From the NCBI GenBank assembly GCA_029817715.1, contig JARUPY010000190.1:4154001-4218000 (forward strand): 64,000 bases of DNA, in the 5' to 3' direction. This document shows positions 43,938-63,100 of the stretch, in pieces; the stretch's first letter is position 1; every line of letters starts with the position of its first letter. The translations under genes and the position numbers were made by a program. Under the pieces are notes generated by a model. That model searched no databases, was not told where the DNA came from, and was given only the letters and a program-made list of their open reading frames with translations. The DNA comes from Melastoma dodecandrum (taxonomy: Eukaryota > Streptophyta > Magnoliopsida > Myrtales > Melastomataceae).

Positions 43938-44292
43938 TGATGCGCGGGAACCAAACCTGGGACGCTCGCTACTACTGGAAGACTTTTTACATTTGTAATG
44001 GGTTAGATGATGGACTAAAGAATGGCCCATGGGATGCGTGGGCCAATACGGGTAAAAATAATAAAAAGGAGAACAGAACGGTGGGGGGAGGAACGTGCAT
44101 TCTGTTGGAGGGAATTAGTTGGAAGGAGGAGGGGTAGGGGTGACGCGCAGTCTGTTAGAAGAAAAGAATGGGAGGGGATAACCGGAGAGGAGGATGTTGA
44201 CGATGGTGTTTGTTGGCCGGGGCTGTCGGGGGTTGTGAGTGTTTTTTGCTTCAATACAAAAACGTGATCGTGTTCTGGAATACCACGCTTCA
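43938..44292 (+). repeat. 5' LTR of Gypsy element 1
   Basis: 355 bp, TG...CA ends, identical by eye to 48915-49269. The 5' region contains the presumed promoter; no strong TATA box is obvious. Confidence 0.95.
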
Positions 44293-44321
44293 AGGGTATC
44301 AGAGCTTCGATCTGCTCAGCA

Positions 44322-47300
44322 ATGGTGGATACGAAGTTCCAGGAGCTGCGGAAGGAGCAGGAGGCTACTCAGGCGTTGGTGGGGAACTTGGTGGATCGGA
44401 TGGAGATGTTCACAACGCAACTTAAGGATATCCAAGTGAAGTCGGATTCCAAATGGGAAGCGATTCAGAGTCACCTCTCAGCACTGGGAAAAATTATGCA
44501 GGAGAGTAAGAAAATGGAGTCGGGTCAGGAGACTACCAGATCGGGAACGATAGTCAACCGGAATGAGGAGAATCAGCCAATCAGGTTTGCTTGTGATTAT
44601 TCTATGCCTAAAGTCGAGTTTCCTGAATTTGATGGAACTCAACTGGAGGACTGGTTATACAAGAGTCGGAGGTTTTTCGAATTGGAGAATGTACCGGAGG
44701 AGAAAAAAGTGAAATTAGCTTCGTTGTATATGAGTGGGGCGGCCCTACAGTGGCATTATACATACATAAGGAACAGGGGAGTTGTGGAGTGTCCAAGCTG
44801 GAATGAGTACGAAGTCGCCTTAAATCAGAGGTTCGGAAGGGAGGTGTTCGAGGATCCGATGGGGCGCATGAAGAACTTGAAACAAGAAGGGCCATATGAT
44901 AATCTTTACGCTTACATGGAAGAATTTGACGCTTGCCTTAGGAAGGTGTTAGAGAAGGTGGATTTACCCATGTCATTTCAGGTAAGCTTGTTCATCAATG
45001 GATTGAAGGAATCTTATCGAAGTACACTCTGGCTTTTAAACCCCACCGATCTGTTAAGCGCACAAGCTAACGCCAGGATTATTACTACGGATGTGCCCCA
45101 AGAAGGGAAGGATAACTGGAAGTATAGACCATCTAGACCCATTAACAGAGGATTAATTCCTTTTTCGGGTGCGTCTGCAAGTGTGAGGAGCAGTAATAAT
45201 CAGGGGACAGTTGGAGGAAAGGAAGTACCAAGTTACAAGTTCAATAATCAGAATGGTAGCACATACAGGTCAGGAGAACAAAGGGGTAATGCAGTTAACA
45301 ATGGCAGGAGAAAGCTTAGTCATGAAGAGATAGAAGAGAGGAGGATGAAGGGTCTTTGTTTTGGCTGCAATGAACCTTTTAGTCGAAATCACAGATGCAC
45401 TAAGCGACAATTTTTTTCTTTAATTGTGGAAACAGACTCGGAGGAAGAACTTCCCACGGAAGAACAACTGGGTAATTATGAGGATCAAGTGAATGAGGAA
45501 TTAAAAGTAACATTACATGCCCTGGGTGGTGAGATGGGGAACGTTGGAGTCCAAACTATGAAAGTGCAGGGGAAGTTTAAAGGAAGAACTCTGAATGTGC
45601 TCGTGGACTCCGGTAGCACGCATAACTTTGTGGATGTTAGTGTGGTGAAGGGATTGGGTTTGTATACTACATACATACAACCTATTAATGTTACGGTGGC
45701 GGATGGCAGATCGATAACCAGCAACCGGGTCTTAAAACATTTTTTGTGGGAAATGCAGGGCTATCAGTTCGAAGCTGATTTTTATGTGATTCCTTTGGGA
45801 GGATGTGAGATGGTTTTAGGAGTTAAGTGGCTGGCACGGTTGGGCGATATAATTTGGAATTTTAGTTCAGCCACCATGAAGTTTCATTGGAAAGATCAAC
45901 AGATGGTGTTACGAGGTGTTAAGGAGGCTGAAGAAAGGGCAATATTACAGATGGCGTCTAAGAAAACATTAACCAAAATGGGGGGGCGACAGTTCAGCTG
46001 TTACTGTCTGAACATACAACATGGTGGTGAAGTTATCTTCTCAAACCATACAGAGCTCATTGATGAGCAGGGTACAGGATTGGAAGATTTGTTGCAGTCA
46101 TTCGTTGATGTTTTTGAGGAACCAAAAGGTTTACCCCCATTTAGGGGTTATGACCACTCAATATTATTGAAAGAGGGAGTACAAGGGGTTAATTTACGCC
46201 CTTACAGGCATTCCTCCTTGCAGAAAGATGTCATCGAGAAAATGGTGAGGGACATGTTGAATTGTGGAATAATACAACCCAGTAAGAGTGCTTTTGCTTC
46301 CCCCGTGGTACTGGTGAAAAAGAAAGATGGTAGCTGGCGGATGTGCGTGGATTATCGACAACTTAATCTCCACACGGTGAAGGACAAGTACCCCATTCCG
46401 ATCATCGAAGAGTTAATGGACGAATTACATGGTTCAACGGTTTTCTCGAAGATTGATCTAAGGTCGGGGTATCACCAGATCAGAATGCTACCAGAGGACG
46501 TCCACAAAACTGCCTTCCGTACCCATGACGGACACTACGAGTTCCTCGTAATGCCATTCGGGCTCACCAACGCACCCTCAACATTCCAAGGATTAATGAA
46601 TTCTATCTTTCGGCCATATTTGAGGAAGTATATCCTGGTTTTCTTCGATGATATTCTGGTGTACAGCAGGAACAGGGAGGAGCACTTGGAACATTTAAAG
46701 ACTGCTCTGTCTTTGCTGCGAACTCATACGTTATATGCCAAGCGATCAAAGTGTTCTTTCGGTAGTACAAGGATTGAATATCTGGGGCATTATATTGACA
46801 AAGAGGGGGTTTCGACAGATCCAAAGAAGATTCAGGCTATTATAGAATGGCCGTTTCCACATAATGTGAAACAACTGCGGGGATTTCTTGGTTTGAGTGG
46901 ATATTATCGACGGTTTGTCAAGGGGTATGGAGTTATTAGTCGACCCTTAACGGATTTGCTGCGGAAGGATGCCTTTCAATGGAATGAAGAAGCACAGATG
47001 GCCTTCGACAAGCTTAAGGTAATGCTCACTACTGCCCCTGTTTTAGCACTCCCTGATTTCACCAAAGAGTTCATAGTGGAGACAGATGCTTGCGAGATGG
47101 GAATTGGAGCTGTGCTGATGCAGAAACATCATCCCATCGCATTCATCAGTAAGTCGCTATCTTTGAAGCATCGCAGCTTGTCGGTCTACGAGAAAGAGTT
47201 GTATTCAATTGTTTATGCTATTGGGAAGTGGCATCACTATTTGGTGGGACGACATTTTATTATTAAAACCGATCATAAGAGCCTCAAGTACTTATTAGAG

Positions 47301-48917
47301 CAGAGATTACACACGGAGAGCCAATTTAAATGGCTATCGAAGTTGGTGGGTTATGACTATGAGATATCTTATAAGAAAGGTGTTGAAAACGTGGCCGCAG
47401 ACGCCTTGTCGCGGGTACAGGGAGTTGAGCTACTGGCTATTGTTACCCAGGATGCTTATCCTACTCTCTTAGATGAAATTAAAGGATCTTGGGAGAGGGA
47501 CGCTCAACTGTGTGATTTGGTGGGAGGAAACAGGGAAGGGGAAACAGCCAGCAGTGCTTACACTTGGCAGCAGGGGTTACTGAAGAGGGGATCTAAGATT
47601 GTAGTGGGTAATGTCGAGGAGGTTCGGAAGAAAATTATTCAGATATTTCATTGCAGCCCAATTGGGGGACATTCAGGCGTGCTAGCCACATATAAGAAGG
47701 TGGCAGGGGTGTTTCATTGGAGGGGAATGGAGAGGGATGTGAGGAATTTTGTTAGACAATGTGAAGTTTGTAGAAGGTGCAAACATGAGAATGTCAGTCC
47801 TGCGGGATTGCTAGAACCGCTACCGGTTCCAGAGGGGGTATGGAAAGACATTTCGATGGACTTTATAGAAGGGCTGCCGAAATCACAAGGGAAGGAGGTA
47901 ATCTTAGTAGTAGTGGACAGGTTGACCAAGTACAGCCACTTTATCGCCTTGGCTCACCCTTACACAGCAAAGGCAGTGGCGCAATCTTTCATGGATAACG
48001 TCTTTAAGTTGCACGGGATGCCTGCCACCATAGTTAGTGATCGGGATACTGTCTTTCTTAGTAGATTTTGGCAGGAACTCTTTAAATTACAGGGGGTGGA
48101 GCTGCATTTATCGACGGCTTATCACCCTCAGACGGACGGTCAAACAGAGGTGGTAAATCGGTGTTTAGAGACTTACTTGAGGTGCATGACAGGGGAATGC
48201 CCGAAGGAATGGAATAGATGGCTGCCATTAGCGGAGTGGTGGTATAATAGCACCTATCATTCCTCCATTCGCATATCACCATTCGAAGCATTGTATGGCT
48301 ACCCGCCACCAATACACATTCCCTACTTCCCTCATGATAATGTGGTGGCAGCAGTGGATCAGGAGTTGTGTGACAGAGAAGCTATGCTGCAGTTATTACG
48401 ATTTAATTTGGACAGAGCTCGACATCGGATGCAGCAACTAGCTAATGCTCACAGAACAGAGAGGCATTTTGAGATTGGGGATTTGGTGTTTGTCAAACTG
48501 CAGCCTTACAAACAGTCCAGTGTATCAAGGAGGGAGAATCAAAAGCTGTCGCCATTATATTATGGCCCTTATAAGATCGTGGACAAGATAGGCAAAGTGG
48601 CTTACAAGTTGGAATTACCGGAGGGTTCAGCTATACACCCCACTTTTCACGTTTCCAAGTTAAGGAGTGCGGGAAGAGTTGATGTTGTTAGAGTTTCATC
48701 CACACTTCCAGAATGGGATAACAGTGAGACAGATGTTCCGGTGGCAATCTTGGCCAGGAAGATGGTGAAGCGCGGATCACGTGCTGCTACTATGGTACTG
48801 GTTCAGTGGAAAAATCGAGTCAAGGAGGATGCTACTTGGGAGTTTCTATATGATTTGGAGCGCAAGTATCCAGGACACACACTTGAGGACAAGTGTGGTT
48901 TAAGAGGGGATGCTTGA
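44322..48917 (+). CDS. Gypsy chromovirus gag-pol polyprotein
   Basis: 1531 residues in one frame. Order: gag (~95-230), zinc knuckle CFGCNEPFSRNHRC (~345), aspartic protease VDSGSTHNFVD (~425), reverse transcriptase with VDYRQLN and catalytic FFDDILVYS (~773), RNase H ETDACEMGIGAVLMQ, integrase HHCC domain (SPIGGHSGVLA ... RQCEVCRRCK) and DDE core (SMDFIEGLPKS, SDRDTVFLS, AYHPQTDGQTEVVN), and a C-terminal chromodomain (VPVAILARKM ... VLVQWKNRVKEDATWEFLYD, ~1472-1523) that marks the chromovirus clade. Chromodomains steer integration to marked chromatin. All catalytic motifs seen are intact. The stop codon TGA (48915-48917) is the first three bases of the 3' LTR, so the polypurine tract is coding. 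gag and pol are fused without a frameshift. Confidence 0.95.
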   Translation: MVDTKFQELRKEQEATQALVGNLVDRMEMFTTQLKDIQVKSDSKWEAIQSHLSALGKIMQESKKMESGQETTRSGTIVNRNEENQPIRFACDYSMPKVEFPEFDGTQLEDWLYKSRRFFELENVPEEKKVKLASLYMSGAALQWHYTYIRNRGVVECPSWNEYEVALNQRFGREVFEDPMGRMKNLKQEGPYDNLYAYMEEFDACLRKVLEKVDLPMSFQVSLFINGLKESYRSTLWLLNPTDLLSAQANARIITTDVPQEGKDNWKYRPSRPINRGLIPFSGASASVRSSNNQGTVGGKEVPSYKFNNQNGSTYRSGEQRGNAVNNGRRKLSHEEIEERRMKGLCFGCNEPFSRNHRCTKRQFFSLIVETDSEEELPTEEQLGNYEDQVNEELKVTLHALGGEMGNVGVQTMKVQGKFKGRTLNVLVDSGSTHNFVDVSVVKGLGLYTTYIQPINVTVADGRSITSNRVLKHFLWEMQGYQFEADFYVIPLGGCEMVLGVKWLARLGDIIWNFSSATMKFHWKDQQMVLRGVKEAEERAILQMASKKTLTKMGGRQFSCYCLNIQHGGEVIFSNHTELIDEQGTGLEDLLQSFVDVFEEPKGLPPFRGYDHSILLKEGVQGVNLRPYRHSSLQKDVIEKMVRDMLNCGIIQPSKSAFASPVVLVKKKDGSWRMCVDYRQLNLHTVKDKYPIPIIEELMDELHGSTVFSKIDLRSGYHQIRMLPEDVHKTAFRTHDGHYEFLVMPFGLTNAPSTFQGLMNSIFRPYLRKYILVFFDDILVYSRNREEHLEHLKTALSLLRTHTLYAKRSKCSFGSTRIEYLGHYIDKEGVSTDPKKIQAIIEWPFPHNVKQLRGFLGLSGYYRRFVKGYGVISRPLTDLLRKDAFQWNEEAQMAFDKLKVMLTTAPVLALPDFTKEFIVETDACEMGIGAVLMQKHHPIAFISKSLSLKHRSLSVYEKELYSIVYAIGKWHHYLVGRHFIIKTDHKSLKYLLEQRLHTESQFKWLSKLVGYDYEISYKKGVENVAADALSRVQGVELLAIVTQDAYPTLLDEIKGSWERDAQLCDLVGGNREGETASSAYTWQQGLLKRGSKIVVGNVEEVRKKIIQIFHCSPIGGHSGVLATYKKVAGVFHWRGMERDVRNFVRQCEVCRRCKHENVSPAGLLEPLPVPEGVWKDISMDFIEGLPKSQGKEVILVVVDRLTKYSHFIALAHPYTAKAVAQSFMDNVFKLHGMPATIVSDRDTVFLSRFWQELFKLQGVELHLSTAYHPQTDGQTEVVNRCLETYLRCMTGECPKEWNRWLPLAEWWYNSTYHSSIRISPFEALYGYPPPIHIPYFPHDNVVAAVDQELCDREAMLQLLRFNLDRARHRMQQLANAHRTERHFEIGDLVFVKLQPYKQSSVSRRENQKLSPLYYGPYKIVDKIGKVAYKLELPEGSAIHPTFHVSKLRSAGRVDVVRVSSTLPEWDNSETDVPVAILARKMVKRGSRAATMVLVQWKNRVKEDATWEFLYDLERKYPGHTLEDKCGLRGDA

Positions 48918-49269
48918 TGCGCGGGAACCAAACCTGGGACGCTCGCTACTACTGGAAGACTTTTTACATTTGTAATGGGTTAGATGATGGACTAAAGAAT
49001 GGCCCATGGGATGCGTGGGCCAATACGGGTAAAAATAATAAAAAGGAGAACAGAACGGTGGGGGGAGGAACGTGCATTCTGTTGGAGGGAATTAGTTGGA
49101 AGGAGGAGGGGTAGGGGTGACGCGCAGTCTGTTAGAAGAAAAGAATGGGAGGGGATAACCGGAGAGGAGGATGTTGACGATGGTGTTTGTTGGCCGGGGC
49201 TGTCGGGGGTTGTGAGTGTTTTTTGCTTCAATACAAAAACGTGATCGTGTTCTGGAATACCACGCTTCA
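48915..49269 (+). repeat. 3' LTR of Gypsy element 1
   Basis: 355 bp, identical by eye to the 5' LTR; its first three bases are the stop codon of the polyprotein. Confidence 0.95.
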
Positions 49270-53800: not shown

Positions 53801-55547
53801 AACGAATCAAACTCTGAAAAAAATCATCTTTCTAGCAATGCCGAAGGAAACTTGATCAACAGTGAGATTGAGTCTGAGAAAGAGAGTAATAACAATGCCA
53901 ATTTTGGGGTTGTTACGGACTTGGACAAGGAAGCCGATAAAGAAGCATCACAGAAACTTATGTCAATGATAGAAGAGAGGCTAAAGAACAAACCTTCTCC
54001 ACCACCACCTGCATCTCCTGCACCAATGGTAGATGTCTCAGGAAATGGGTCAGAAATACCAGCTAAGACTAGAGACAAGGTGTCTGGTGCTGATATTGAT
54101 GGTTAGTCATATATTCAGTAGTGGATTTCTCGGTGTTGCACAAAAATATTGATTGTTCCCTATAATCCCTTGTAAAGGTGTCCCATGCTTTTTATTTCAT
54201 TAGAGGTAGAGAAATTTGTTTTAACCTTATGTATATGTTGCAGATGGATCACAGAAAAACAATGAAGATGCTGGTGGTGACAACAGATCAAGTGAGCATG
54301 ATAGGACTGATGTTAGATCCCCCAAGAGGAACAAAAGATATAACCGAAGAAATAAAGAACATGATCGGCAGCGAGATCAGCAGCGTGAGAAAGAAAAGGA
54401 ACTTGAAAGATTTGAAAGAGAAGCTGGACTAGAGAAAATCCGCAAGGAGAGAGATCAGAGAAGGCGGCTTGAGAATTTTGGGCGTGAGTATGAGCAGCGC
54501 CTTAAGGACTGGGAATATCGGGAAAGGGAAAGAGAGAAACAACGTCAGTATGAGAAAGAGAGGGAGAAAGAGAGGGAACACAAGCGAAGGAAGGAGATCA
54601 TTTATGATGAAGAAAGTGATGACGATGATGCCAGAAAAAGGTGGCACGGGAGTGCGGTGGAGGAAAGGAGGAGGAGGAGGATCCGAGAGAAAGAGGATGA
54701 TTTGGCCGATCGAAAGAAAGAAGAAGAAGAAATCACCGAGGCAAAGAAGAGGACAGAAGAGGAGGAAAAGCAGCAGATGCAGCGACAACGAGAAACTTTG
54801 AAACTATTTTCTGGTAACTTGAGAGGCAGTGACGATACAAGTCCTCAACCAGAAAAACTAACAGGTTCTCACCTTCGTGTGGAGGACGACCCTACCCACA
54901 AAAACAGTATAAGCACTTCATTCTGTCTAATATGTAGACCATATTGTTGATCTTCACATAACCATGATCTTGTTTCTAATATGATTTATTTTGTTTTGAC
55001 AGCTGACAACAGCAAATGGCAAGTCGATCCCACGGATAACTCGACAATGTCCTCATTTGCTATTGCTGATATCCAGCACAAAAGTAACGTCCCTGCCAAG
55101 AAGTTAGGATTTGGTATTGTTGGGTCTGGGAAATGGGCTGCTGTTCCTTCTGTTTTCAACGCAGAAGATGATGATACGCACATGGAGAAGAAGCTTCGTC
55201 CTTTGGTCCCGATTGACTACTCTACAGAGGAAATACAAGCCGTTCAACCATCTGGTGCCGGACAGCCACAATCAAATTTAGCTGCAGCAGCAGAATTCGC
55301 AAAGCGAATATCAAATGCCAGCATGAAGGAAGAAAAGGCAGAATACGGTAGGGAGAAAAGTAGATGGTCTCATGATAGGTCAAGCCAAAGGAACAAGGGC
55401 CAGAATGATGAGGATGCTCATCGTGCTAAATATAAAAATCATGGACGGGATACGGAGCGAGAGCAAGGATTTGAGGTGTCAAAGCCTTTGGAAAATACAA
55501 ACTCTGGGATGCCAAACAGTTAATTGAAATGATTCCTCGAACGAAGG

Positions 55548-56010
55548 TGATGCGTGCCCTCCCTCTACAACTCACGCACCGATGGACTCACCACCCCAAA
55601 TGTAAAAAAAACGCCGATGATATAATCCGACGGCCACCTTCATTCATAAAAGATAAGAACATCCACCTCCCCCGAGAGCACAAGCCCTCACATGACATTC
55701 CCAACCGACTCCCCTCCTAACAATATGCAAATCTTCTCTCCTTCACGTTCTCCCCTGCTGTCCCTTAATACCAGAAAACCCCTCTAACCAACTTCCCTCA
55801 CACCCGACCCGCATTGCCCCGACCTTCATCCTTAACCCCTCTCCGGCCCACCCGTGAGCCCCTATTTACAAACCGCCCCTATTTACAAACCTCTGTCTGC
55901 TGGCCCTATTTACAACCCACATACCCGAACCTTTATTTATAACCCGAACCCAACTCCTTTACTACCTTCACGCCCCATCCGCTTCTGTCTTCCTCGTTCG
56001 CCTTGCATCA
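55548..56010 (-). repeat. LTR-A of the composite insertion
   Basis: 463 bp on the minus strand, beginning TGATGCAAGGCGAACGAGG and ending GGGCACGCATCA, with TGATGC/GCATCA inverted tips. A purine-rich tract (TTTAAGGGGAGTGAAT) precedes it, exactly as in element 1. A related ~60-bp unit covering ORF end, purine tract and LTR start is repeated just upstream (56011-56120), with GAACGAGGAAGACAGAAGC in both copies. Confidence 0.75.
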
Positions 56011-56307
56011 ATTCACTCCCCTTAAAGCACACTTGTCCTCGAGTGTGTGCTTCTGTCTTCCTCGTTCATCAGGCGGCGGCTGTCACTCCCCTTGCATTGC
56101 ACCTGTCCTCCAAAACACAAGAAGGGTAGCGTTGCTCCAAATCATAAAGATATTCCCAGGTAGCATCTTCTGCAGAACCAGTAGACCATTGCACCAGAAC
56201 CATTGTCGCTGCTCGTTGGCCTCGCTTCACCATCTTCCGAGCCAGGATAGCAATGGGTACAGGAGAAGGAGAAACACAGAACTGGGGAAGGTTCTGAGAT
56301 ACCCTGG
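56011..56307 (-). pseudogene. Gypsy chromodomain fragment (minus strand)
   Basis: Minus-strand frame reading DPRVSQNLPQF, VPIAILARKMVKRGQRA, MVLVQWSTGSAEDATWEYLY, then RCNARGV and a stop. It matches, position by position, the polyprotein end of element 1 (RVSSTLPEW, VPVAILARKMVKRGSRA). Its upstream portion (integrase) is absent here on this strand because it lies inverted on the right. Confidence 0.85.
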
Positions 56308-57410
56308 GATCGTGACAGTGGATGCGGTGGTGGGTAAGAATGCAGATGTACGTCGCAGAATCATTGATGCTTTCCATAGTAGCTCGGTGGGGGGCCATTC
56401 GGGAGTGTTGGCGACTACTAAGAAGGTCACGGGTTTATTCTTTTGGAGAGGAATGACTAAAGACATAAGGAACTTTGTTCGCACATGTGACATTTGTCTT
56501 CGTTGTAAGTACGACAATGCGGCTCAGCCGGGATTGTTGCAACCGCTGCCGATTCCATCAGGAGCGTGGCAGGACATTTCCATGGACTTCATCGAAGGCT
56601 TGCCAAAGTCACAGGGTAAGGACGTTATACTCGTAGTGGTGGATCGGCTGACCAAGTACAGTCACTTCCTGGGTTTGACGCATCCCTATTCTGCAAGCTC
56701 GGTTTCTCAGGTCTTCTTGGCTCAGGTGTTCAAGTTACACGGTTTACCGTTGACGATTGTGAGTGACAGGGATGCGGTCTTTCTCAGCAAGTTTTGGCAA
56801 GACTTATTTCGCTTGCAGGGAGTTGAACTACACCTTTCATCGGCATACCATCCGCAAACCGATGGTCAAACGGAAGTGGTGAATCGTTGCCTTGAAACAT
56901 ACCTTCGGTGCATGGTCGGGGATTGTCCAAAGGATTGGTATAAGTGGCTCCCTTTAGCTGAATGGTGGTATAACACCTCCTACCATTCAGCTATACGTTT
57001 GACGCCGTTTGAGGCATTATATGGGTACCCGCCACCCATACATCTTCCGTATTTCAGCAATGACAATGCGGTGGCGGCAGTGGATGGATTTTTACGGGAT
57101 CGTGAAGCTATGTTGAGAGTTCTTCGATTCAACCTTGACAGGGCTCAACACCGGATGAAACAACTAGCTGACCAACACCGATCGGAAAGGGAGTTTAATG
57201 TCGGTGATTGGGTCTTTGTCAAATTACAAGCCTACCGGCAGAGCAGTGTGGCTCGTCGGGCAGCGCACAAGTTGTCTCCTCTCTACTATGGGCCTTATCG
57301 AATTATAGATAAGATTGGAAAGGCTGCTTATAGACTGCAGTTACCGGAAGGATCGGCAATTCATTCCACTTTTCACGTTTCGAAGCTGCGGGGTGGAGTA
57401 TCAGACGCTT
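56308..57410 (+). pseudogene. Gypsy integrase fragment (plus strand)
   Basis: Plus-strand frame containing the integrase zinc domain (SSSVGGHSGVLATTKKV ... RTCDICLRCK), DDE core (SMDFIEGLPKSQGK, VSDRDAVFLSKFW, AYHPQTDGQTEVVN) and C-terminal region to FHVSKLRGGVSDASRVS. RT and everything 5' of it are missing. Residue identity to element 1 is high but clearly not full, so it comes from a related, different chromovirus. The block is bounded by GATACCCTGG (56298-56307) and its inverse CCAGGGTATC (57411-57420). Confidence 0.88.
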
Positions 57411-57650
57411 CCAGGGTATCAGAGCCCACCCACCCGCGCAGTGCAAGCGAGCGGCGCGGGCAAGCTACGCAGACCAAGCCTCTGGCTTGGCCCGCGTGGG
57501 CGCCGGGCTGCGGAGCGTGGTGGTATGATGCGTGGGAAAAGTGTCCCACACCGGTTGTATGGGCGACCGGTGTGGGGTATATATGGGCCTTGGGCACTCC
57601 CTTCCTTTGAGTCGACTTTTGGGAAGGGTTCTCCCAAGTAACCTGTATCA
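57411..57650 (+). repeat. Primer site, short GC-rich body and 125-bp LTR-B (TRIM-like half)
   Basis: AGGGTATCAGAGCC at 57413-57426 equals the primer site of element 1 and follows ACGCTTCC, close to the LTR end of element 1. About 100 GC-rich bases lead to GGAGCGTGGTGGTA and then a 125-bp LTR (57526-57650) starting TGATGCGTGGGAAAAG, with a TATA box (GTATATATGG) near 57577, ending CCTGTATCA. Primer site, tiny body and short LTR are the 3' half of a TRIM-type element. Confidence 0.65.
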
Positions 57651-58101
57651 GAAGGTCGATTTGTTCTCATACGAGATTAATTGGGCACTATATGACCAGG
57701 TACTTCTCGTGTCAACTAAACATTCATTGCGGCATGCTGCACTTTATTAGGTTTAATTCAAGTCCGCTTTGTGATCATAACGTGGAACATCTGGCTTCAC
57801 ATGTGGTTCTTATCAATTCACATTTTTTTAACAGCACGCGCTGCACGAAAGAATGAGGCCATGGATCTCGAAGAAGATTATGGAGTTCCTCGGGGAGGAA
57901 GAAACTTCTCTGGTGGATTTCATCGTGAGCAGCACGCAGGAGCACGTGAAGGCAGCCGAGATGCTGGAGACGCTCGAGTCGATATTGGACGGGGAAACGG
58001 AGATGTTTGTGCTCAAGATGTGGAGGATGCTAATATACGAAATTAAGAAAATAGAGACTGGTCTCCATTCTAGGTCAAGATGTAATGATCAGAAGTTGTG
58101 A
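57651..58101 (+). pseudogene. RBM25: Severed 3' exons of the RBM25-like gene (PWI domain)
   Basis: 57651-57699 (KVDLFSYEINWALYDQ) and 57835-58101 (HALHERMRPWISKKIMEF ... stop) are joined by a phase-0 intron. The PWI core Pro-Trp-Ile is intact, and the PWI nucleic-acid-binding domain looks undamaged apart from being cut off from the rest of the gene. A transcript could still start in LTR-B just upstream. Confidence 0.88.
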
Positions 58102-59175: not shown

Positions 59176-60101
59176 CGTAGACAACCGTGAATAAATCAGA
59201 AACTATTTATGAGCTGTGATCCTATTGATTTACTTACACTTACCAAGTCTCCCTGCCTAATGCCTTAATTGATAATAAGGTTAAAGGACAATGGAATCTC
59301 ACATGGGAGGGCGTCTGTCCCATCGAGTGGAAAAAGGGAACGTCGTCTTTGTTCTTGGAGACGGCGGAGCGCTCGGTCTCTCAGAGTTGGGAGTACTTTG
59401 GCTCCGGAATTTGACTTGGGAGTATAAGAGGGACTGGAAATGAAGTCCCGGTCGAAACGATTAAGTGTGAGAAGAATGCTTTCACGTGAGTGAAGGTTGA
59501 TGGTTAGTCGGGTAAGTAATCAACTCGGAGAGAGTTGATTAGATAACGGAGTAAAGAGAATTAGTAATAAATCACAATAAATAAAAGTTGGTAGTAGTCT
59601 TTTATGACTAACAATTATTATTTGTTATCGCTTTACAGGTACCGATGTTGGAAATTCGTATAAATGATTACATTTAGGAACTTGGAACCTTCCATGAGTA
59701 CAGAAACTTGGAACCTTTCATGTGGTATCAGAGCGAGGTTAAGCTCGGAGTAATAAGGTTGAAAATTTAGAATATAAACGAGTCGGTTTTGGACTCGGAA
59801 AAAGGGAAGTTGAGCGTGGGAACATGCGCGTGAGTGGGTTAAACTCATTTGACGAGTTACACATACTTCTCGAAAAACAAATGAGTGACCGGAAATACAG
59901 TTGATATCTGCATAATATGAATTACCGGAAGGGTTGAGTATATGAATGTTGCATTAAGAAGTAAATGTTGATTGTTCGGAATTGAACGATCGTGTGCTTG
60001 GTATTGAGCACACTTATATGGTTTTTATATTTCCGTTGATGTAGTATTATGTGTGAATGGCATAATACTGGGACTAATGATGCAATTATTATGATTGCAG
60101 G

Positions 60102-63100
60102 ATGTCTGAGGAGGGCATACGTAATGCTGTACGGAATTCTCCCCCTAGGGATGAGGATCTATGGCGCAAGAGAAAGGTTGCGCTTATCGGACAATTTCGG
60201 AAACTTGAAGTACCCATCTATTCGGGTGAAGAAGGGCCTGAGAAAGCGGAAGAATTTATTGTCGAATTGGAGAATGCTTTCGACGTGTTGGGATGTTCGA
60301 CAGAAGAGAAGATGATGTTAGTACAACAGTCGATTAAGCGAGAAGCAAATGACTGGTGGAAGGCCAACAAGGATGGAGCACGGATTCTTCATTCTGGAGA
60401 TGAATGGACAGTGTTCAGAATGGCGTTTCTAGGGAAATTCTATCCTCACGTGTTCAGGGAGAAGAAAGCTAGGGAATTCTTATATCTGAGGCAGGAAAGG
60501 ATGTCGGTGGATGAGTATGAGGCACGGTTTTCCACTCTGTCGAGGTATGGCCCGACAATGAGTGCCGAGGCGAAGGCTAAGAAGTTTGAGGAGGGACTGA
60601 GACCGGAAATCATATTCCAACTAAGAACTCTGATGCTCACAACTTACGAAGAAATATATATGAGAGCACAGAGCGCTGAAGAAGGATGGGCAGATATGAA
60701 GGCTGCTGGGGAAGAGGTGAATATGAGAAGAATGTTAGGAGTAGGATCGCCTCCGAGGAAGAAGTTCCGGTTAGGAGAGTCATCCTCCTCTGCTCCACGG
60801 TTTCAGGTGAACCGACCCCCGAGAGCTCCTATGCCGGTACGATCATTCTCTCAGGGAAGAGGTCAGGGAGTGAGAACAGGATGTCAGCCCCTTTGCCAGA
60901 GATGCGGGAGGCGTCACTATGGAGATTCATGTGCGTCCAGGGAATTCACTTGTTATCGGTGTGGGCAGCCAGGACACATTCGCAAGGAATGTCCTCAAGG
61001 ACTAGGAGCGGGCTCCGGTAGCGGGTTAACTGGATCAAACGCTCCACGCCCAAGAAGTGGAAACAGACCAGGACCGACTGTGTCTACTTCTAGGGGATCA
61101 GTCAGTGGGCCTGCAGAGACTGTGAGACTGAATGCGACCACGGAAGCGGATGCCGTTGCATCTCGCGGTGTGATCTCAGGTACGGTTCGACTTCAAGGTG
61201 AATTAGTTTATGCCTTGTTTGATACCGGTGCTACACACTCCTTTGTATCATATAACTGTGTGGAGAAATATGGTTGGATAGTAGAAAAGACAGTGAAACA
61301 GTGGCATGTTGTGTTCCCTACTGGAATAGAATACTGTGTTGATGATGCGTGTCTAAATTATGAGTTAATTGTAGCTGAATTAAAGTTTACTATTGATCTG
61401 TTGGTGTTGCAGATCCGTGATTTTGAGATTATTCTGGGCATGGATTGGTTGGCTTCTAGCCATGCACAGGTAGACTGTGAAAGGAAGCGCATTTTGTTTA
61501 GCACAGAAGATGGAGGTTCTCGTGAGTACATAGGCCATGGAGGATGCGGCCAGATTTTGATGATATCAGCGACACGGGCATATCACCTTGTACAGACAGG
61601 GCACGAAGCGTTTCTAGCGACTGTGCTGAACAAAGAAGCTGAGCTACCGATGCTGGAGCGGATTGAAGTGGTGAAGGACTTTTCTGATGTCTTTCCCGAG
61701 GAGCTACCGGGACTACCACCTAGTAGGGAAGTAGAGTTTGTGATAGATTTGGTTCCGGGGACAGCTCCCATTTCTCGGACCCCGTATCGCATGAGTTTTG
61801 CCGAGTTGAAAGAATTGAAAGCACAGTTGCAGGTACTTGTAAATAAGAACTTTATTCGCGCTAGAGTAAGCCCGTGGGGCGCTCCTGTTTTGTTTGTAAA
61901 AAAGAAGGATGGATCGATGCGATTGTGTATTGACTATATGTTGCTTAACCAAAATACAATCAAGAATCGATATCCACTTCCACGTATAGATGATTTATTT
62001 GATCAGTTACAGGGATCAATGGTGTACTCCAAGATCGATTTGAGATCAGGTTATTATCAGATTGGAGTGCGGGAAGAAGATATCCCTAAGACTGCATTCA
62101 GAACGAGATACGGTCATTACGAGTTCAGAGTAATGCCGTTTGGAGTAACCAATGCACCAACAGTATTCATGGGATTAATGAATCAAGTGTTTCGACCGTA
62201 CCTGGATCAATTCGTGATAGTGTTCATTGATGATATTCTTGTATACTCTAAGAGTAGAGAAGAACACAAGGAACATCTGTCTATTGTACTAAGGACGTTA
62301 CGGGAAAATAAATTGTATGCCAAACTCAGCAAATGTGAGTTTTGGCTTGAGAAAGTAACGTTCCTTGGACATGTCATTTCAGCCACGGGTATAGGAGTAG
62401 ATCCTACGAAAGTGGAAGCAGTTAAGAAATGGCCACGACCGACGACAACAGCAGAAGTAAGAAGTTTCCTTGGGTTGGCAGGCTACTACAGGAGATTTGT
62501 CGAGGGATTTTCTAAAATAGTTGCCCCTATGACTAAACTATTAAGAAAGGATGTCCAGTTTGAATGGACAAATAACTGTGAAGAATGTTTTGAAGAACTC
62601 AAGAGGAGATTAACTAGCGCTCCTGTGTTAACTATACCGAGTGAGTCAGGAAAATTCGTGGTGTACTGTGATGCATCCACTCAGGGATTGGGCTGCGTAT
62701 TGATGCAAAACGGTAAAGTAGTGGCATATGCCTCTCGACAATTGAGGAAACACGAGGAAAATTACCCAAACCATGATTTAGAGTTCGCTGCTGTAGTATT
62801 TGCATTAAAATTGTGGAGGCATTATCTGTATGGAGAAAAATTCGAAGTATGCACAGACCATAAGAGTCTGAAGTATCTATTCACACAGAAGGAACTGAAT
62901 ATGAGACAACGAAAGTGGATTGAACTATTAAAAGATTATGACTGTACAATTCAATATCATCCAGGCAAAGCAAATGTGGTGGCAGACGCCTTAAGTAGGA
63001 AGCATTGTTCACTTATGTGCCTCCTGGTGGAAGAGTCACGGATGATAGAACAATTAAGTAATTTGGACTTGTGTCTCGAAGAACCAGATGGACGATTATG

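Follow-up and report, generated by a model that had tools for sequence, protein, structure and literature searches.

How can a single insertion in a plant gene end, on both of its sides, in the 3' end of a long terminal repeat (LTR)? The question is raised by a stretch of 64,000 nucleotides from Melastoma dodecandrum (positions 4,154,001 to 4,218,000 of contig JARUPY010000190.1, assembly GCA_029817715.1; hereafter the window). Here an exon resembling those of plant RBM25 genes is interrupted by 2103 bp (55548-57650) made up of parts of a Ty3/Gypsy retrotransposon and of a terminal-repeat retrotransposon in miniature (TRIM). The left end of the insert is the 3' (U5) end of an inverted Gypsy LTR, LTR-A, and the right end is the U5 end of a TRIM LTR, LTR-B. 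Most likely the whole of 55548-57650 arrived as a single-step insertion. We consider it probable that it stems from one event of co-packaged reverse transcription, in which synthesis switched from TRIM to Gypsy at a primer-site microhomology, two aborted complementary DNAs (cDNAs) were joined, and the resulting molecule with two U5 ends was integrated. The parts of the locus are as follows.

55002..57711, plus strand: interrupted RBM25-like exon (host), with its right part at about 57651-57711; continuous in the paralog L036
55543..55547: left copy of the GAAGG target-site duplication; the unoccupied paralog has GAAGG once
55548..56010, minus strand: LTR-A, complete Ty3/Gypsy LTR, 463 bp; end-to-end match to both LTRs of a Gypsy on contig C592
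56011..56307, minus strand: Gypsy piece made up of the polypurine-tract region and the polyprotein's chromodomain tail, cut off at CCAGGGTATC; assigned by PF00385 and comparison with C592
56298..56307, minus strand: inverted copy of CCAGGGTATC, the truncated end of the chromodomain/LTR-A piece
56308..56326: filler of about 19 nt between the chromodomain and integrase pieces; differs from the native C592 sequence there
56327..57420, plus strand: integrase piece, open frame ending SDASRVS; H2C2 and SH3_Tf2-1 above the Pfam cut-offs, rve below its cut-off
57413..57420, plus strand: AGGGTATC, bases found both at the Gypsy breakpoint and in the TRIM primer site, where the template switch is proposed
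57413..57525, plus strand: TRIM primer-binding site and internal region, 113 bp; 93-98% to TRIM copies
57526..57650, plus strand: LTR-B, TRIM 3' LTR, 125 bp; 90-99% to the LTRs of TRIM copies
57651..57655: right copy of the GAAGG target-site duplication; the unoccupied paralog has GAAGG once

A single duplication brackets the insert in an RBM25-type exon

An initial annotation of the window had described a 2103-bp insert between perfect copies of GAAGG that entered as one unit, and both the coordinates and the one-unit claim were borne out. The unoccupied site is found in the same assembly, where the RBM25 paralog L036 on contig C501 reads CGAAC-GAAGG-AAGATTTG without interruption and with one GAAGG. 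The only duplication pair lies at the outer ends of the insert, and no 5-bp duplication was present at any internal junction tested. With equal base frequencies, the chance of a 5-bp duplication falling exactly at both LTR ends is about 1/1024.

The insert lies in a coding exon, and the RBM25-type gene concerned is duplicated: RBM25 homology is found on both sides of the insert, and a second copy of the exon (L036, 88%) is unbroken. The host reads DAKQLIEMIPRTK to the left of the insert and KVDLFSYEINWALYDQ to the right, corresponding to the C-terminal part of the plant RBM25 protein, and carries a frameshift near 55499, just upstream of the insert. The two best RBM25 homologs are the Melastoma candidum proteins P0001 and P0002. 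The window aligns with P0002 in three longer stretches (87, 98 and 67%), the first and third of which span introns as gaps, and the protein is uninterrupted across the insertion site, where it reads KLWDAKQLIEMIPRTKVDLFSYEINW. This fits either an empty site or splicing in Melastoma candidum.

The borders of the insert (55543-55548 and 57645-57655) create AAG/GT on the left and CAG/AAG on the right, a possible intron whose removal would be frame-neutral; against an easy splicing reading, the host copy is already frameshifted upstream. Elements with TG...CA ends and a duplication that starts and ends in G would be expected to create the same frame-neutral intron in general.

Two LTR families and a divided Gypsy polyprotein

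The arrangement of the outer ends as two opposed LTRs, both with the 3' end outward, was confirmed by the elements to which they belong. LTR-A occurs at three places in the whole assembly, namely in the window and as the two LTRs of one Gypsy (L009, C592:4783265-4788751). This element has the normal order of LTR, primer site AGGGTATCAGAGC, integrase, chromodomain and LTR, and is flanked on both sides by the target duplication CCTTC. Both there and in a second Gypsy of the window (43938-49269) integrase is followed by chromodomain, contiguously and in one orientation, within one polyprotein. Judged by this comparison, the integrase (plus strand) and chromodomain tail (minus strand) of the insert are fragments of one such polyprotein, as the initial annotation had it. 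The chromodomain tail gave an E value of 2.9e-5 and 24.3 bits with PF00385, just under the curated cut-off of 25.1, and the domain scored below this cut-off in both proteins scanned.

The C592 element is a close relative of all Gypsy parts. The integrase piece matches it at 97-99%, with other places among the matches listed at 78% or less. It differs at 24 of 1010 aligned sites; polarized by five relatives that are not mutually independent, 13 of these differences appear derived in C592 and 5 in the insert, with 6 unclear. The chromodomain piece differs at 7/297 positions. LTR-A differs from the C592 3' LTR by one substitution in 461 aligned bases, plus two indels, and from the 5' LTR at 25/440; at the 25 sites where the 5' LTR alone differs, LTR-A has the bases of the 3' LTR. 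The C592 3' LTR is far nearer to LTR-A than to its own partner. The left arm contains a diverged tandem duplication of about 70 bp (55981-56110) in the region where the chromodomain ends and the polypurine tract lies.

The right arm belongs, as suspected, to a TRIM family. Its members have short direct LTRs and a primer-binding site, are non-coding and under about 1 kb, and occur as dispersed copies with 5-bp duplications. Canonical copies have the order LTR-internal-LTR (duplications, for example, CACGG, CGGAG, CCGTC, TGCAG and GTCTG), and tandem arrays are present too, e.g. at C439 (GTTTA) and C125 (AACGC). The TRIM of the insert has one LTR, the 5' LTR-B being replaced by the Gypsy integrase.

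When LTR-A and LTR-B were compared by BLAST at E 10, a single 9-nt terminal match on opposite strands was found. The first 9 bp of the insert, TGATGCGTG, equal the start of LTR-B, and a remnant of a TRIM 5' LTR at the left end was considered. This was rejected, because these bases also terminate both LTRs of the C592 Gypsy and are thus LTR-A's own end. LTR-A, as well as LTR-D and LTR-Y of two composites described below, ends in CACGCATCA, the opposite strand of which resembles the TRIM LTR start. Since the two LTRs of the chimera come from different families, it cannot be dated by LTR divergence.

The break point coincides with a primer-site microhomology

Both Gypsy pieces break off at one 10-mer, CCAGGGTATC, which is found in the window once per strand, at 57411-57420 (plus) and 56298-56307 (minus). 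The proposal that this inverted 10-mer marks the break was upheld in that respect and refined in another: integrase homology starts at 56326-56327, so that the two pieces are separated by a filler of about 19 nt. The proposed overlap of the break with a primer-site core held as well. The 8-mer AGGGTATC is common to Gypsy and TRIM, and on the sense strand of the C592 Gypsy it has two occurrences only, one in the element's own primer-binding site and one exactly at this breakpoint. In plants, the initiator-methionine tRNA is expected to prime at GGTATCAGAGC.

No source of the filler was found, the longest matches in C592, the rest of the window and the integrase part of the insert all being 9 nt. 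Random expectation has a mean of 8.3 nt for C592 (6.5 kb) and 9.9 for the rest of the window (62 kb); for the integrase part (1.3 kb) it is 7.2, the match there being slightly above chance. Rfam gave no match at gathering scores in 55300-57900. An inversion of the integrase across pre-existing inverted repeats was also considered and rejected, as the 100 C592 bases around the start of integrase homology do not contain GATACCCTGG. The filler, the coding-exon target and a match with the C592 target duplication (see below) had been missed by the initial annotation.

A probable route through co-packaged reverse transcription

From the anatomy of the insert, the microhomology, the target duplication with its unoccupied site and the related composites, we infer co-packaging, the order of steps, the joining and the role of integrase, and with them all steps before integration. 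RNAs of a family A Gypsy and of a TRIM would probably have shared one virus-like particle, with the composite cDNA built before integration. The TRIM minus strand would have been copied as far as its own primer-binding site, giving it a 3' end complementary to AGGGTATC. This end could then anneal to the Gypsy RNA at its only other AGGGTATC, which lies at the boundary between integrase and chromodomain, displace the growing Gypsy minus strand from its template and copy the integrase up to 56327. The displaced Gypsy strand would persist as a short cDNA reaching from the U5 end of LTR-A to CCAGGGTATC, and the truncated ends of both products would be joined via the 19 nt of filler.

Both borders of the insert are U5 ends, the start points of minus strands, and an aborted cDNA keeps its U5 end and lacks the other. 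Each aborted product having one intact U5 end, their join would be a linear DNA with two U5 ends, which integrase would then insert into the RBM25-type exon, duplicating GAAGG. The enzyme could accept a U5 end of the CACGCATCA type in place of a U3 end, because the opposite strand of CACGCATCA resembles the TRIM LTR start. That the pieces share a break at AGGGTATC links them to a single event.

Related composites in the assembly

We searched for the internal junctions elsewhere, on which the question of a replicating family had been made to depend. The exact chimera was found at one place only (432 first-look candidates, 40 scored, 84 matches), and other composites of the same TRIM family are present. 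Among the protein matches listed (the best 120 of over 6000 per list) there was no protein copy of the chimera, which has an open frame of 555 codons (55943-57607) spanning the joined pieces. When this frame was compared by BLAST with 231 proteins and the in-window polyprotein, 245 alignments resulted. Of these, 68 extended for at least 8 residues to query residue 496 or later (mean identity 30%) and 18 to residue 118 or earlier (34%), with 57% in the core. Three alignments were inspected beyond the integrase borders and showed an ordinary chromodomain or upstream polyprotein region. In viral contigs four stretches fit a peptide pattern, none of which encodes a relative.

The TRIM primer-site pattern, with at most one mismatch, occurs at 21 sites in the assembly, all of which were checked with their flanks. 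An LTR-B end precedes 17 of them (one an LTR-B with an internal deletion); the other four are the window and three sites preceded by the end of a different LTR, C407:469097 (LTR-Y), C439:2136110 (LTR-Z) and C601:3233116 (LTR-X). The 21 sites represent 17 places, or 15 if C89, C395 and C601 are counted once; these three would be alternative copies of one locus, because they have structure and flanks in common. Composites with another LTR family make up 5/15 places (C253, C407, C439:2136110, C601 and the window), or 5/16 with C273, a canonical TRIM copy outside the primer-site pattern.

The composite at C407 (L032 1720-3335; target duplication CTCTC) is closest in plan to the insert, as both of its borders are LTR 3' (U5) ends pointing outward. 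Its order is LTR-Y (minus), A, TRIM (plus), AGAT, LTR-Y (plus), primer site, TRIM internal region and LTR-B. A Gypsy at C268 has LTR-Y as its LTR, with ...GGAT before it and AGGGTATCAGAGC after it. The spacer AGAT equals the U5-side AG plus the AT that precedes LTR-Y in that element, and with these flanks at C268 it looks like two unprocessed cDNA ends joined. At C253 (L031 1090-7841; AATGG) LTR-D, an inverted TRIM and two truncated Gypsy copies stand together; the Gypsies face each other head to head, 2 nt apart, and the spacers AGCT and TATA separate LTR ends. The C601 composite has GAGGA on both sides, and C439:2136110 is flanked by CGCTT and AGCTT, which match at 4/5 bases.

We tentatively suggest that a rescue of aborted reverse transcription, in which cDNAs with a U5 end only are joined by their truncated ends, gives rise to a recurrent tail-outward (U5-U5) class, seeded here by pairing of the TRIM primer site with Gypsy RNAs.

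At L016, L017 and L018 (C89, C601 and C395) a Gypsy unit has LTR-B TRIM segments on each side and GAGGA outside; with the same flanks, the three contigs are perhaps alternative haplotypes.

Alternative explanations

Several observations weigh against the route proposed above. The target duplication of the C592 Gypsy, CCTTC, is GAAGG reversed and has the same orientation to LTR-A as the left border in the window, a coincidence of about 1/1024 by chance. LTR-A differs from the C592 3' LTR at 1/461 sites and the integrase and chromodomain pieces together at 31/1307 (Fisher p 0.0016), and because LTR-A is so much closer to C592 than the coding pieces are, the left arm may have a history of its own. 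The likeness to C592 could possibly reflect chance, gene conversion, mosaic parentage or repair copying. With the same duplication and so close a 3' LTR at C592, confidence in the left GAAGG as a pure mark of integrase is therefore lower, although the unoccupied paralog shows that GAAGG was present in the host before insertion. Furthermore, no template was found for the filler, the exact chimera was found once, and the borders of the C253 composite are an ordinary LTR start (left) and LTR end (right), so that U5-U5 borders are shared by C407 only.

One alternative is a patchwork made by DNA repair, in which a break in the RBM25 exon was filled by copying the genomic C592 3' LTR, with GAAGG as microhomology, followed by Gypsy and TRIM sequence and rejoining. 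The reversed duplication and the siding of LTR-A with the C592 3' LTR at all 25 informative sites would follow from it. However, both host junctions lie exactly at LTR ends with exactly 5 bp duplicated, the chromodomain and integrase pieces do not share the closeness of LTR-A to C592, and GAAGG is the right flank of none of the listed TRIM copies. We regard this explanation as unlikely.

Template switching and autointegration had both been put forward for the insert, and the former fits better. In autointegration, an LTR end of the Gypsy cDNA would attack its own interior or a TRIM cDNA and invert a part before genomic integration, in agreement with the inverted order of integrase and chromodomain and with the inverted composites elsewhere in the assembly. 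The attacked site shows no 5-bp duplication, having instead the 8-nt primer-site microhomology and the 19-nt filler, which makes this route decidedly improbable.

TRIMs and Gypsies often nest, and the window contains a second Gypsy, but a later rearrangement of separately inserted elements is very improbable with a single duplication pair at the outer ends and both Gypsy pieces stopping at the same 10-mer; separate nested insertions, each with its own duplication, were not supported by the internal junctions tested. Repeats are prone to misassembly, yet an artefactual fusion of C592-like and TRIM sequence is hardly credible where the host exon resumes on both sides, the duplication matches the unoccupied paralog and the coding pieces differ from C592.

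Relation to known systems

The proposed co-packaged reverse transcription has a precedent in the template-switching complexes of LTR retrotransposons, which have one 5-bp duplication and are attributed to switching between co-packaged RNAs (Sabot & Schulman 2007, PMC1950507). The insert is like them in its single flanking duplication (GAAGG, with an unoccupied paralog) and in its explanation by template switching. In those complexes two elements of the same orientation have a third LTR in common, the outer LTRs are highly similar and the switch is placed at R, whereas the insert joins different families in opposed orientation, has two U5 borders and no internal LTR, and would have switched at the primer site; its outer LTRs are not near-identical.

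Tandem TRIM arrays with target duplications have been described, one of which, in maize, holds two inverted TRIMs (CTTCA; PMC4717578). Compared with the available part of that report, the window is set apart by its broken Gypsy polyprotein and its second LTR family, and no junction of integrase with a TRIM primer site was found there. For Arabidopsis EVD, truncated and chimeric circles and insertions are known, including two truncated insertions with clear target duplications (PMC10462705); in the portion of the account at hand all truncated insertions have two LTRs, and no tail-outward hybrid was found. Recombination during transposition bursts has been reported between members of one LTR retrotransposon family (PMC5668417); the study is, by its title, within one family and its accessible part contained no inverted hybrid, whereas the window joins two families. 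No description of a tail-outward Gypsy-TRIM hybrid was found among the titles and abstract openings listed by the literature searches, whose coverage leaves out most subscription journals. Within that literature, template-switch complexes are already known and the tail-outward variant appears to be new.

The insert would preserve, at base level, the marks of a possible fate of failed retroelement cDNAs: a strand jump, a drop point and the joining of two leftovers. U5 with U5, a pair of ends normally not used together, was apparently accepted for integration. The insert also shows how fragments of one element can be brought into genes by a different, non-coding parasite. As one genome holds several composites of a single small TRIM family, the rates and rules of joining could be counted, and with stitched pieces at other loci an apparent accident is open to study as a repeatable process.

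Neighboring elements

Two further elements were noted in the window. The Gypsy at 43938-49269, upstream of the RBM25-like exons, has flanks GACTC and AGACG without target duplication, identical 355-bp LTRs and one open frame of 1549 codons. At 59720-62300 there is another element with a primer site TGGTATCAGAGC and a gag-like stretch, which by eye seems to start near 59724.

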